Below are positions 1,117 to 11,690 of a DNA stretch of 11,690 nt, piece by piece. The notes under the pieces were generated by a model. That model was given only the letters and a program-made list of their open reading frames with translations. It had not been told where the DNA came from and searched no databases. The stretch spans positions 1 to 11,690 of the forward strand of contig MU621531.1 of assembly GCA_025399215.1 (NCBI GenBank), read 5' to 3'. The translations under genes and the position numbers were made by a program. Position 1 is the stretch's first letter. The number at the start of each line of letters is the position of its first letter. Source of the DNA: Globomyces pollinis-pini (Eukaryota > Chytridiomycota > Chytridiomycetes > Rhizophydiales > Globomycetaceae).

Positions 1117-1629
1117 TTATTTGACTTTTTCGAGTCCTTCTTTTTCAACTCCATCATTCCACATTCCCATGTCTTCTAAGACTAATTGGATCGTAGTCTT
1201 CCAAATTGAAAAGTTGTCAGAGTTTAACTTTTCAATCTTAGTGCGTTTATTCTTCTTTTCAGCACTCATTGCAAACACTTTGAATTCAGTCTTATTGCAA
1301 TTGAAAACATTAAAATAGTTGGTATCCTTTTGATTTATTATTCCATAAGCCCAAGGATGTTGGAAGTATTTTGAAACTTCTTTGCAGCATTCAACATGAC
1401 CAGCAGCATTCTTTTCTAACCGACGAAATGAAACAAACTTCTTTTTCTTGGTGACGCAGTTGTTTGGCCATTCATTTTTCCCTTTCTTGTAGAAAATGGG
1501 CAGAAAGTTTATCAATTCATCAAAGTCTTTTTCTTTGACTAAGATTCGTTCCTTCTCGTAACTGCAATCAAGATCAACTTTTCGAACAATCAAGCGCCAA
1601 GTTGGAGGACGATCTGACTTTCTTGGCAA
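1117..1629 (-). pseudogene. Copia-type gag-like fragment fused to an unknown region
   Basis: This open frame runs on the minus strand to TAA at 1119-1117. Its last part, from Met at about 1269, reads MSAEKKNKRTKIEKLNSD followed by NFSIWKTTIQLVLEDMGMWND. This resembles the N-terminal gag motif of Ty1/Copia retrotransposons (K-I-x-x-L-N-x-x-N-[FY]-x-x-W-K, helix, then G-[LM]-W). Gag would normally continue for over 200 residues; here it stops about 25 residues after the motif, so the element is truncated. The roughly 120 residues before that Met are Lys- and Cys-rich and unrecognised. They may be an unrelated frame the fragment landed in. Sure of the gag resemblance, unsure of the left part. 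Confidence 0.45.
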
Positions 1630-3983: not shown

Positions 3984-3998
3984 TTAGGGTTAGGGTTA
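3984..3998 (+). repeat. Short telomeric patch (TTAGGG x2.5)
   Basis: TTAGGGTTAGGGTTA lies internally in AT-rich DNA, in the same orientation as the patch at 2904-2933. It directly abuts the 24-bp tandem repeat that follows. Confidence 0.7.
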
Positions 3999-4824: not shown

Positions 4825-6396
4825 CTATTCATCTGCTCTTGATTTGATAAACAACAAAAACGAATTAACGTATAGTAATTCCAACACATGATCAATCACT
4901 GGATCAAAAATCGAAATTGGGATCATACTGTTCTTAATGTTACGCAGTTGTACATCAATTGACTTTCGAAGGGTGTGAGTTACATTTACTTCAAATGGAG
5001 ACTCGGGTTTCACAAACATTTGATCGAAAAACATATATAATGGTGCCAAGACCACCGGAATGGGTGTATCCTTATCTTCATCTTCAACGTTTGTGTCTAA
5101 AAATCGTTCGAGTGATAATGGAATCATGTTATCTGGTCTCTGTCTTGATCGACTTTCCAACTTCAGGAATGACTCGAAACAAACCAAATTTTCCTCACAA
5201 TGCGTTTCCTAAAATTAAGGATTCATAGATTTTACCTTGACGAATTGAGAAAACATTGCATAATATTTTGGGTTTTGCAAAACTTCTACCATACAATCTC
5301 TTGTATGTTTTAATTTGATTTTGTCCTTTTTGCCCATTCCTTTCATTTTATCCCATAGATTCATTGAGCTGGAATTCTTAGATTTCTGCTTTTCCTTTTC
5401 TCTGCCTATCTCAGTGGATTGTCTTGGTGAAGAATCAGAAATAGTTGATTTTGCAAATTGATCTTGCATATTGACAATCTCCCAATCTTTATGGGCTTGT
5501 AATACTTCCTTTAATGATGGGATGTTTGCCCCTTTAATCATTAGGTATTTTTGAAAGCATCGACAAAATAATGATTCTAGTATGCATTAAAAATCGAAAG
5601 CAATTACCAATTGCGATTTCCGCAATCTTATCAAAAACTGTAATCGACACTGTTCGGTCACATGTTAAATCCAACAATCCTGTAGCAACCATCTCTCGAA
5701 CAATTGGTGGAATGAATGGAACTTCAATTGGAGACCCTATATATTAGCATATGTATATCAATCAATGATACCTGAATATAAACAAATATAGTAAAATACC
5801 TATCACAAATAAACATATAATTGAATTACCTGCTGCAACAAAAGTAGCGTAAAATCGCAATAATTGATGAACGACACTGGATGGAACTTCTCTCATATTA
5901 TCACCTCTCATTCGAGGATTCAATGGGTCCAGAAATCGATAAATAACAGGATGATCCTTGGGGAACACCAGGGCATTAAAGTTCTTTGTGGGTTCAAATT
6001 TTTCATTAGCGAATAAGTCTTGAAATCTCCAATAGTTTTCCAAGTATGACGATAGTGGATTGGAAAGTTGAAAATACTAGAATATTAATAGCTTATGTCC
6101 GTACCTATATCATTTAAGTTATGACGCGGACATACCTAAAGATCAGTTATGAGGCAAAACTATTTATGAACCTGTTTCAATAATAAGTAATATGGAATTT
6201 ACCTAAAGATATTATTATAATAGGTAAGGCACCTAAGGGAATGAAATTAGATGTATCTTACCTTATCGGATAACGACAATACTTCTTTAAACTCCTGTGC
6301 TTTATCTTCGTTCTGCATAATAGCCAAGAATTTCAATTTAGCATCCTGAATTTCTTCTTTAAATGGCAGTAATGCTTCATTCTTGACTGCAAACAT
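4825..6396 (-). CDS. Protein with two RGS (regulator of G-protein signalling) domains
   Basis: Exons, read on the minus strand: 6396-6262, 6076-5830, 5736-5608, 5576-5236 and 5208-4825, giving 411 residues with all junctions in frame. The first RGS-like region (about residues 55-190) shows LENYWRFQDLF, FYATFVAAGSPIEV (the helix-5 F[IV]xxGSPxEVN signature) and ITVFDKIAEIAIESLF. A Lys-rich linker follows (about 205-255, EKEKQKSKN, KMKGMGKKDKIKLK), suited to membrane or partner binding. The second RGS domain (about 260-400) has FSQFVKETHCEENLVCFESF, MFVKPESPFEVN and ISIFDPVIDHVLELL. RGS proteins speed GTP hydrolysis by G-alpha subunits or act as scaffolds at membranes. The start is supported by an in-frame TGA 15 bases upstream. 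Introns are 185, 93, 31 and 27 nt; the two long ones are tandem composites. It lies 87 bp downstream of POLD2 on the same strand. Whether both domains retain GAP activity cannot be judged; the first is divergent. Confidence 0.85.
5737..5829 (-). other. Composite intron made of three abutting GT-AG units
   Basis: This 93-nt intron of the RGS gene splits exactly into units 5829-5800 (30 nt), 5799-5772 (28 nt) and 5771-5737 (35 nt). Each begins GTA and ends AG, and they meet at AG|GT junctions. Removing the whole stretch joins GCA-G to GG-TCT-CCA and restores the conserved AAGSPIEV, so no exon lies inside. Confidence 0.7.
6077..6261 (-). other. Composite intron made of six abutting GT-AG units
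   Basis: The first RGS intron (185 nt) divides without remainder into units of 29, 30, 31, 36, 31 and 28 nt: 6261-6233, 6232-6203, 6202-6172, 6171-6136, 6135-6105 and 6104-6077. Every unit starts GT and ends AG, and these five junctions are the only AGGT motifs in the intron. Two internal acceptors share the exact string ATCTTTAGGTA. Full removal keeps the frame (…LSLSDK then YFQLSNP…). Obvious internal exons are blocked by stops. Confidence 0.65.
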
Positions 6397-6483: not shown

Positions 6484-8099
6484 TTATTCGATTTTTGAAA
6501 TATCAAATTCCACTGTTTTGGTCTCAAGGGTACGTGTATTGACCAGGCAAAGGGTTCCTGTCTCGCAAAATACTGGAAGCATTACTATCCTTACGTGATG
6601 TTCACCTATTAACACTAATTCACTTTCATATTGTGGTTGATTTCCAACAAAATAAACCTTCGGCAGTTGTTCTATTATAAATGGATCTCTGTCTGTAAAC
6701 GGATAACACCACAAGGTATCAGGGCATGTTGGTGCTAAATGGGCACACTTGAGCGTTTGCTTAGCAATATCCATTCGCGAATCTGTCTTTGTATATTTAT
6801 ACATGTTCTCAATGTTTTGTCCTGAGGTTCCTAAAACATTATTTACTACGAACAATACCTAAAAAGCTAAGCATATCAGAAACATTAAAGGTCAAACTTT
6901 GTATCATCGATAGTAATATGATGCGGATTCGTAACTGATTGAAATGTGGAATAGTGACAGGAATTGGTAAACATAGAGGCATGCATCGCTTGTTGTGGCA
7001 TTAGATGTGTAGCTGGATCTGTTTGACCCTATGAAGTTAAATAAAAAAATTGGTAAGATAAATTATAAGTGAAATAGCATTGAATAAACCCAATTGAACT
7101 TACCGGCATTATGTCTACATCTATACTTGTACAAATTTCAGTTAACCATTCATCCAAGGTCTCAACTGGAGTGGAATCATACCGTGTAGTTTCGCATCCA
7201 AAGTCATCTCTGATGGTAAGATCATCAATTTGCTTTTGGTTTAAAGGAGCAATAGAATTCCCAGCAATGATAACTCGCACAATATTACAAGAAAAATCCT
7301 AAAGACGTTAAGGCCATGGTTCAGTCGTACTTGTGATTCGCCAAGTTCTCCGACAAGATACTCAGATAGCATATGGAGTTTGAAATCGTAAGATCCTGAA
7401 GAATCAATGTTCAATCCTGAAACTAATGCCACCCAACAATCAGTATCTATATATAAACATCAGGTGAGTATTACCATCTTTCAGGGACAAAGGTATTTCA
7501 GGTCCATAGTTGGGATAACAAATATCAATTATTTCAAAAGAGCCATCTTTGCTTTCATTGCCAACTACTCCTACCACCATTCCCGATGTCAAAATATGAT
7601 CTTTCAAAATTGACCCCGTCAATTTGACTCTACCTGATTCATCTTCTAATAAAATAGAATCTTGCTCGCTGAGATACTTTTCTTTTGGTGCTGGGGGTAA
7701 TACCCATTGCTAACAGACGTAAACGTTTTGCGGGTGAGAAACATACCTGTCTAGTAATATCATTCAACACATTAGGTTTTTCTGGCATATCTAGCAATAA
7801 AATGTAGACCAACTCTTACCACAATAGATTGTTCCAAATATGGATGATACCTTTGAAGATACATTCACGATACGGATCTGGTCAATATCTGGCCAAGTGC
7901 TTAACCGATCCTTCAATTGATTCAATCGAGTAGCGTACAATTCTGAATATTGGCGAGCTAAGTTGGTGAATTGATTTTAACGTTTACTATATACTTTTTC
8001 CTTAATCTTGAATTCATGACCAGTCTCGACTTTGGTAGTCTTTCGATTTAATCTATTGAATCGTTATAAACATTCAATTTACAATCTGTCGGTTGTCAT
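6484..8099 (-). CDS. POLD2: DNA polymerase delta small (B) subunit
   Basis: This is the orthologue of human POLD2 and yeast Pol31, a structural subunit of the replicative polymerase delta that bridges the catalytic and third subunits. Ten exons give 431 residues (family about 460-490): 8099-8083, 8052-7988, 7957-7820, 7790-7747, 7709-7475, 7446-7331, 7298-7104, 7028-6898, 6866-6859 and 6830-6484. Signatures: YTRQYSELYATRL (27-39, OB-fold side), ALVSGLNI (about 170-177), VRVIIAGNSI, VDIMPGQTDPA (about 266-276), FLGTSGQN (315-322), APTCPDTLWCYPF (349-361), DPFIIE and VYFVGNQP (375-382), LVNTRTLETKTVEFD. The C-terminal half is the calcineurin-like phosphoesterase fold, catalytically inactive in this family. 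The first exon (17 nt, MTTDRL) rests on a 30-nt intron that restores the frame and is the least certain part. Introns are 30, 30, 29, 37, 28, 32, 75, 31 and 28 nt. Confidence 0.93.
6831..6897 (-). other. Two mini-introns flanking an 8-nt microexon in POLD2
   Basis: Intron 6897-6867 (31 nt, GTTTGA…TTAG), microexon 6866-6859 (CTTTTTAG) and intron 6858-6831 (28 nt, GTATTG…TTAG) lie between the exons ending DDT-AA and beginning GA-ACC. Including the microexon reads AAC TTT TTA GGA ACC, giving the family-invariant FLGTSGQN. Skipping it shifts the frame and destroys the motif. No other GT-AG pair in the stretch gives FLGTS. Confidence 0.8.
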
Positions 8100-9666: not shown

Positions 9667-11690
9667 TCACTCAACTGGAAGTTCCAGGTCTATTTTAGTC
9701 TCCGGTTGAGACTTGGTCAATACCCAAACTCCCACAACAATCAATCCAATCCCAAGAGATAAGAAAACCAAATCTTGTAAATTAGATGATCCGAACGCAT
9801 CTAAATACACCATTGTGTTTGTCAGTGATAAACATGTAAAAAACGTATAAAATATTGGTAAGACCAATACTGGCAATTCGTATTTTAATGCCGAATTCAA
9901 AGAATACACCTATTTTGAGTAAAAGGAGTAATACCTGACTGAAGGCTGTTATGATCAATAATGATACAATGATCAATGAAAATACTCCATGAAATTGATT
10001 TTTTGAATCTATAATAGATATCAAAAGCACATCCACTCTAAACTGGTTAGTATATGCATAAAAAATTAGTCTGAATGATTTTGAACGACTAGTAAGTATG
10101 GAACTGAGGGATTTGAACTATCCAACGAATAAGAAAATGGAAACATCCTTCAAAACAAAAAAAAAACATACCCACTCTTTGTCAATAGTAATGTATCAGA
10201 CGCAACAATGCCTCCTAATATTGCATACAGAATGCCAATTAAGCCACTAACGTTAAGTGGTGTTACAGTCCGAATAACTGATGTTGCAGTATTGGTTCTG
10301 ATAAGTGGTACGCGCTGCTCACTCTCACTTGGAAACGGATCAATGTCAATTCTGAGGCGATGTTCATCATCTTCATGCATCTGCTGCTCACGTTCATTTC
10401 GAAACCGCTGTTCGTAGTCTTCTCGAATTCGATTAATTGAAGATGTAGATGATGCGCGGATCATAACCTCATTCTCTATTCCAGTGGCTTCTTCGTTAAT
10501 AGTTGTTTTGATAGTGATAGAATGACGGGAAGTTGAGTTCCGTAGTGGTGGTCTTTGGGATGCATCCATTGAGAAAGATCTTCGAGTTCCAAGTCGCGAA
10601 TTCATCCGTGTAGGAGTGTTCGAAAAGACTAACAAGTTTTGTCTGAAGGTGTCAAATGTGTCGTCTGTTACCTATTGATAAATTTCCTTAATCCAGCTAC
10701 CTTTGTACCAAAAATTCCAGATATTTAATTGCAAATAGTAGTGAAAACTCAATAAAGACCTGCACTGTGATAATATTAATGATGTTTAACAAAATATGTG
10801 AAGTGAGATCATTTTTGTATGTCTGCCGTTTTTTATGATGTTCATGGGGTGCACAAAAGGGTATAAAAATTACCTGATGTGTAAGCAATGAAAGCAGGCT
10901 TTGTAAACAATATTATAAGAGCATCAATAGATTTGGCTATTAACTTTAGATAGCCAAAAAGTTACGAGAATCAGAAATGTTGGAACCAAATGTACTCACC
11001 ACAGCACAACCAGCAACAATTAAAATGGTACCAATCCAATCATAAGTCGAAATAATAGTGCCAAGGAAAATAGACGAGAAAAGAATATTGAAAATCAAAC
11101 CCAAAGAACCTAAACTAAAACATTATAAAAACACTGTTGTTACATTGGTTACCTGACAAATATGAAAAATGATTGAAATTACGGGGCGAATACCATTGGA
11201 GATATAAAAGCCAAAGCGACTAACTTTAAATTGAAGAATTTGTACCAACAGATCCAAACACTTGGCAAAGTGTGTATAGGCAGAAACCAACATACCACTG
11301 AGAAGATGTCCAAAGATTTGAGATATATAGACGAAACGGAGTGGGAGGAGGAATAAGGCAATCAGATTCAGAAGCGGGAGATTCTAAGAGTTGATCGTTA
11401 TATAGTAAGTCATCTGGTGATAAGTGTTGGTGATCCGGAAATAAGATTATATTTTCGGATGTTTTTGATAGCAACGCAGCAGCCTGTAAATTTAAACCTA
11501 CATATATTTAATATGATCTATAATAAATAATAGTGTTTGATTTAAATAGATCTGTATTAGGCTAACAAACACACAACGACATCAGTATAGACTTACCTAG
11601 AGAGGATAAGCATGCGGAAGCCAGTGCAATGATGGTTCCCAGTATAAAATTCCAAGAAGGTGGATTGAGCATTAAATTGGAATCAAAGGA
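9667..11690 (-). CDS. NIPA-family (magnesium transporter-like) membrane protein, 5' end at window edge
   Basis: Nine exons are in frame over 498 residues: 11690-11597, 11497-11246, 11219-11183, 11114-10966, 10936-10874, 10764-10709, 10671-10172, 10037-9935 and 9909-9667. Family signatures: ILGTIIALASACLSSLGLNL, SPMVFAPLGSLGLIFNILFS, STYDWIGTILIVAGCAVV, ILFTKPAFIAYTS, LIGILYAILGGIVASDTLLL, ALKYELPVLVLPIFYTFFT and GIGLIVVGVWVLT. NIPA proteins are multi-pass carriers linked to magnesium transport in animals; substrate here is inferred. Two polar insertions stand out: about 55 residues after the first segment and about 120 residues, Ser/Arg/Glu-rich, coded mostly by the 500-nt exon, both likely cytosolic or luminal loops. 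ATG 11672-11670 could be the start, but the frame is open to the edge. Introns are 99, 26, 68, 29, 109, 37, 134 and 25 nt. Confidence 0.85.
11115..11182 (-). other. Composite intron made of two abutting GT-AG units
   Basis: This 68-nt NIPA intron splits into 11182-11153 (30 nt) and 11152-11115 (38 nt), both GTAA…AG, meeting at AG|GT. Full removal joins GCC-CC to T-TTA-GGT and gives the conserved FAPLGSLGLIFN, so the split contains no exon. Confidence 0.65.

Follow-up and report, generated by a model that had tools for sequence, protein, structure and literature searches.

Introduction

A 185-nt intron in Globomyces pollinis-pini, a chytrid of the order Rhizophydiales, raises the question of whether an intron can be built from, and removed as, a series of smaller introns laid end to end. 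Most known recursive splicing concerns introns of great length in animals, and the way in which introns multiply is not settled. The first-pass annotation of the window (a stretch of 11,690 nucleotides that makes up the whole of contig MU621531.1) had read the interval as six abutting mini-introns that might be spliced recursively in very small steps. We have followed this reading through the window and then through the genome.

Results

The window gene lies on the minus strand and codes for an RGS-domain protein, with 100% identity over 311 aa to BC833DRAFT_317198 (Globomyces pollinis-pini). Within it, the interval 6077-6261 (minus strand, 185 nt) is tiled exactly by six GT...AG units of 28-36 nt, with junctions precisely where they had been claimed: unit 1 at 6233-6261 (29 nt, its outer donor following ...GATAAG), unit 2 at 6203-6232 (30 nt), unit 3 at 6172-6202 (31 nt), unit 4 at 6136-6171 (36 nt), unit 5 at 6105-6135 (31 nt) and unit 6 at 6077-6104 (28 nt, its outer acceptor preceding TATTTTC), all on the minus strand. 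At every junction complete GT...AG introns abut, placing an AG|GT tandem acceptor-donor inside the interval, and this anatomy bears out the earlier claim that each junction re-creates a donor. Five AGGT are present where 0.41 would be expected from base composition and 0.79 from dinucleotide shuffles (P for at least five = 5e-5), in keeping with the first-pass estimate of fewer than one by chance, and only one in 100,000 shuffles tiled completely. The units are dissimilar, the best pair scoring 0.13 against 0.24 for the 99th percentile of unrelated units, and in this they depart from a minisatellite with its similar units. RNA folding of the 185-nt chain is ordinary (z -0.85).

When the whole 185 nt is removed, the product reads ...VLSLSDK|YFQLSNPL... 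and is colinear with the relatives P0002-P0005 (40-51% identity); the interval therefore contains no coding exon. Retention of one or more of the six units leads to a stop or a frameshift in all 63 of the 63 possible combinations. The annotated protein P0001 starts downstream of this chain, which is a warning for annotation. No second genomic copy with a different unit number was found for the window gene or for the two chain loci searched, one of these chain-locus searches giving additional matches that were local repeats adjoining the chain. Nor was a confirmed relative found at the DNA level in the viral and genome contig collections searched. Two further features of the chain were seen. 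An 8-nt inverted repeat, TATGTCCG / CGGACATA, is found at the 5' ends of units 5 (6105-6135) and 6 (6077-6104), and unit 2 contains CTTACCT, the complement of the unit 1 donor AGGTAAG (within 6203-6265).

The RGS gene holds a second chain, missing from the first-pass annotation, at 5737-5829 (minus strand), where 93 nt tile as units of 30 nt (5800-5829), 28 nt (5772-5799) and 35 nt (5737-5771); P0001 lacks the whole 93 nt. Two stand-alone mini-introns of the same gene and strand, 5577-5607 (31 nt) and 5209-5235 (27 nt), were read from the sequence, and neither is in P0001. At the site of the latter, the metagenomic relative P0003 has six additional residues, as though translation had continued in frame across a very short intron. 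A two-unit chain (30 + 38 nt), likewise missing earlier, is predicted from the gene model of a neighbouring gene at 11115-11182 (minus strand). In POLD2, which adjoins the RGS gene, a 75-nt intron at 7029-7103 (minus strand) is untiled: its donor is GTAAGT, no AGGT lies inside it, and the protein obtained by removing it is colinear with DNA polymerase delta subunit 2.

Elsewhere, the left part of the contig contains internal telomere-like TTAGGG stretches (2907-2930, 3984-3995 and approximately 2208-2229), one followed by its inverted copy. It also contains an open frame at 1117-1629 (minus strand) whose match to DUF4219 is weak (22.4 bits, where the Pfam cut-off is 27) and which we take to be retrotransposon-like.

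We searched the genome (18.55 Mb in 459 contigs) for the same spacing of junctions. TAGGT triples were found 214 times at 23-37 nt spacing compared to 5 times at 38-52 nt; at 83-97 nt there were 17, 11 of them inside fetched chains. Raw AGGT triple counts (1054, with 2879 for a reversed-motif control) were discarded as evidence, because the control is unmatched in frequency and some matches are coding repeats (e.g. locus L003). Introns were predicted in twenty 10-kb stretches and the window using a home-made gene finder, unchecked against any annotation, with a flat intron-length prior of 15-500 nt. It returned 397 introns, 369 of which were bordered on either side by exons no shorter than 30 nt; after exclusion of 8 introns below 20 nt, 299 single introns of 20-42 nt (peak 28-29) and 62 longer than 42 nt were both used. 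Of the 62 predicted long introns, 17 tile completely, compared to 1.9 expected from shuffles (maximum 8 in 500), and without the window 14 of 53 do so against 1.7 expected. The genome-wide excess of AG|GT spacing for which the first-pass annotation had called is therefore present, and the chains are real and occur throughout the genome. The remaining 45 long introns do not tile, some of them maybe wrong predictions. Tiled intervals range from 52 to 365 nt, far from the tens of kilobases of introns that host recursive splicing in the fly. From 14 chains per 200 kb, a rough extrapolation puts chains of at least two units at the order of a thousand genome-wide.

To compare chain units with stand-alone mini-introns, we assembled 32 chains with 163 chain-internal units from 28 targeted loci (27 with a chain), a random sample and the window. 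L003, L014, L015 and L017 were left out as coding or mixed, judged by eye, and L042 was fetched and had no chain of four AGGT. Chain units measure 29.2±2.7 nt and the 299 single introns 29.0±3.7 nt, a match that is partly conditioned by the targeted search patterns, which fixed the spacing of three junctions at 26-40 or 23-37 nt; with this proviso, the claim that units are sized like stand-alone introns extends from the window to the genome. The next unit's donor lies approximately 29 nt downstream of each junction. The two classes also agree in T at -3 (0.83 of chain units, 0.81 of single introns) and in a TRAY branch-like motif, the A of which lies at a median of 10 nt from the end in units and 9 nt in single introns. 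A at +3, in contrast, is rarer in units (0.71) than in single introns (0.91), perhaps partly reflecting a preference for A in the gene finder from which the single introns were taken. The donor and acceptor frequencies of single introns derive from a gene finder trained on such introns.

Evidence from the donors is mixed. GTANGT donors, a motif picked after the data were seen, are absent from all 17 tiled gene-model introns and from all 32 first-in-chain positions, whereas they occur in 11 of 35 untiled introns of at least 60 nt (P = 0.01 and P = 4e-4, respectively) and in 23 of 299 single introns. G at +5 is found in 4/17 tiled gene-model introns, 12/32 first-in-chain donors, 63/299 single introns and 14/35 untiled introns of at least 60 nt, so that first-in-chain donors are nearer to long introns than to single introns in this respect (12/32 vs 63/299: P = 0.045). 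A chain's outer donor does not in every case coincide with its first AGGT; that of L038, for instance, comes after AAT. That chains begin with a mini-intron donor is thus suggested by these data, which are not decisive.

Chains of 5-12 units also lie within the conserved domains of proteins. The exons around chains were joined and the products searched against solved structures, and the chain junction was ungapped in the alignment of a SIK/MARK/SNF1-like kinase (12 units, 365 nt, just before DFG), a Sec4/Rab8-like GTPase (5 units), a Ubc15/UBE2G1-like E2 (5 units), a protein disulfide isomerase (5 units, with gaps elsewhere in the alignment) and CHMP3/Vps24 (10 units, 289 nt). Two more, a kinase at L027 (5 units) and a WD-repeat-like protein at L047 (4 units), are clean by translation alone. 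Judged by colinearity at the protein level, chain sites would leave no nucleotide in the mature product.

The similarity of units bears on how chains grow. Units that are neighbours in a chain share more similarity than do units from different chains (P = 6e-10), a signal that stems from a few chains, with clear copies in L023, L030, L031, L032 and L034. In a per-chain list covering 31 of the 32 chains (the two L018 chains share one key), 9 have one or more unit pairs that score above the 99th percentile for unrelated units. In chains that lack a clear copy, the window chain among them, units resemble each other no more than they resemble units of other chains (P = 0.19). In L030, units 3 and 5 are identical, as are units 6 and 7, a pattern consistent with blocks of one and two units having been duplicated. 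Two repeated units, searched against the whole genome with up to 3 mismatches, had no copies beyond their own chains, and there is no large family among the 299 single introns of the kind that introners form as dispersed near-identical copies. As the two searched units are confined to their own chains, local tandem duplication appears favoured over dispersal, at least for young chains. For most chains, including the window chain, a duplication origin is extrapolated because their units show no similarity. The first-pass suggestion of growth by tandem duplication is thus supported by near-copies in some other chains and gains nothing from the window chain, the units of which are no longer alike. 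On the minus strand of L018, a predicted 120-nt intron (5218-5338, strand coordinates) ends in two AAATTACTAAATTATTAG copies with AG|GT at their boundary; this may be a unit duplication at an early stage, on an intron of greater length.

Junctions, in turn, seem to be kept. A genome search for a unit followed by a double-length gap gave 117 matches, and in 89 of the 100 listed an AGGT lies inside the gap (counted by eye in 80 printed letters; a few of the 89 may lie in exon); several of the remaining 11 look like exon. Junction loss within chains therefore appears rare, despite most units having diverged beyond recognition, and we infer that the internal splice sites are under selection.

Discussion

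We propose, with a probability of roughly 60%, that the 185-nt interval consists of six autonomous spliceosomal mini-introns concatenated with zero-length exons between them, which would be removed singly or in blocks. Each unit would be recognised by the spliceosome through short-range intron definition, and joining any donor to any later acceptor would give AG|GT again, that is, either a legal substrate or the final product. Because AG|GT stands at every junction, all orders of removal give the same mRNA. This path independence follows from the sequence itself; that the cell makes use of it, through stepwise, recursive and order-independent removal, is likely. Path independence in turn means that a unit can be duplicated in tandem with no effect on the message. 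Chains would lengthen by duplication, after which copies would diverge, with the splice signals kept by selection since a retained unit ruins the reading frame. As a general picture, in which mini-introns behave as a splice-neutral satellite whose copies accumulate, so that perhaps a thousand intervals are spliced stochastically, independently of order and in multiple steps under intron definition, we regard the odds as about even.

The chains could also be excised in one step, the outer donor being joined to the outer acceptor and the internal AG|GT sites being unused relics of intron growth. Since the POLD2 intron is supported by homology, the spliceosome of this organism can take out at least 75 nt without AG|GT steps, which makes one-step removal a live rival; it also draws on the 45 untiled long introns and on the +5 G of first-in-chain donors, which is as frequent as in long introns. 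However, internal junctions persist in chains most of which have diverged past recognisable similarity, none of the 17 tiled introns has a GTANGT outer donor and chains run to 365 nt, and we consider one-step excision unlikely, though a serious contender. The same POLD2 intron and untiled introns weaken the first-pass idea that a spliceosome tuned to tiny introns needs chains to cope with longer ones: chains are shown not to be the sole route by which this spliceosome removes longer intervals. A different origin, in which new introns from introner-like or other sources inserted at the AG|GT proto-splice junctions of existing introns with no local duplication, is rather improbable. Several chains consist of neighbouring near-copies, the two repeated units stay within their own chains and single-intron pairs score above the 99th percentile for unrelated units in just 1.4% of draws. 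Such insertion would nevertheless fit the lack of internal likeness in chains without a clear copy, and exonic AG precedes tiled introns more often than single introns (0.59 vs 0.29, P = 0.01), which is compatible with insertion or recombination at AGGT.

Two further explanations concern whether the chains are what they seem. Hidden micro-exons inside the interval, the finding that the first-pass annotation had named as speaking against its reading, are very improbable and were rejected for the genes tested, as proteins are colinear once the interval is removed, here and in the five other genes aligned. Chance or the low complexity of AT-rich introns might be invoked because the word TATT likewise tiles 17 of the 62 long introns; TATT is present 177 times in them, though, compared to 35 for AGGT, and since the shuffle tilings and the TAGGT triple counts contradict this explanation, we rejected it as having next to no probability.

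How do the chains relate to known systems? In the accessible excerpts of the literature, Drosophila ratchet points undergo zero-nucleotide recursive splicing in long introns, commonly above 40 kb, and intronic recursive splicing there needs a cryptic RS-exon (PMC8605326, PMC6110457). Going by these excerpts, the chains resemble ratchet points in that acceptor and donor are juxtaposed in an intron, upstream removal regenerates a donor and no remnant of the site stays in the mRNA (seen for the chains at the protein level). They differ in that the chytrid segments measure approximately 29 nt, follow each other in runs of up to 12, are of the ordinary mini-intron type and are partly tandem duplicates; moreover, recursion has been demonstrated in Drosophila, whereas for the chytrid chains we infer it. 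Stwintrons, the spliceosomal twin introns of ascomycetes, are likewise single fungal intervening sequences composed of several U2-type introns, with both sequential and one-step excision reported in the portions available (PMC12403724, PMC7138796, PMC5639578, PMC6616335). Yet stwintrons, as described there, are nested, an internal intron splitting the donor, branch site or acceptor of the external one, so that the order of excision matters, whereas the chytrid units are complete and abut; no unit of the window chain interrupts an external donor, branch site or acceptor. U2 introns that abut and are spliced out recursively are named in one of these papers as a class of their own, with reference to one study in Drosophila and to a review (PMC6616335).

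For intron gain, the excerpts describe an AGGT segment that is duplicated in tandem (Rogers 1989, recounted in PMC4974935) and, in two fission yeast genes, 24-nt repeats with AGGC sites (PMC3629103). As in the chains, short tandem repeats with proto-splice sites become intron while the protein is unchanged. Those cases, as presented, duplicate an exonic segment, whereas in the chytrid the duplicated unit is the mini-intron itself and chains occur throughout the genome. Introners, in the excerpt available, multiply introns by insertion into many genes (PMC9860276); the chains share the multiplication, but the two chytrid unit sequences tested stay within one chain. In the open-licence literature, at the level of titles and abstract openings, no such chains were found, nor any paper combining chytrid, intron and recursive splicing; subscription papers were mostly outside this scope, and absence from print is not established thereby. 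Nothing quite like the chains was found in the available text of the literature, including PMC10156609; the accessible part of PMC13105047 has no mention of 'fungi' or 'short introns', and that of PMC8476143, a survey of 644 fungal genomes, none of Globomyces. We class the chains, on their sequence, as a new form of zero-length-exon (recursive) intron structure.

To conclude, a compact fungal genome with many chains of approximately 29-nt introns makes both recursive splicing and intron multiplication testable: unit copies date the growth of a chain, internal junctions can be read out directly in RNA and, from path independence, intermediates should form a ladder. If the proposed reading is true, intron concatemers would lengthen in one-unit steps and would constitute a distinct mode of intron growth, as well as a natural case of massively repeated recursive splicing. 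The chains suggest that introns can increase in number where they stand and be excised piecewise while the message stays unchanged.
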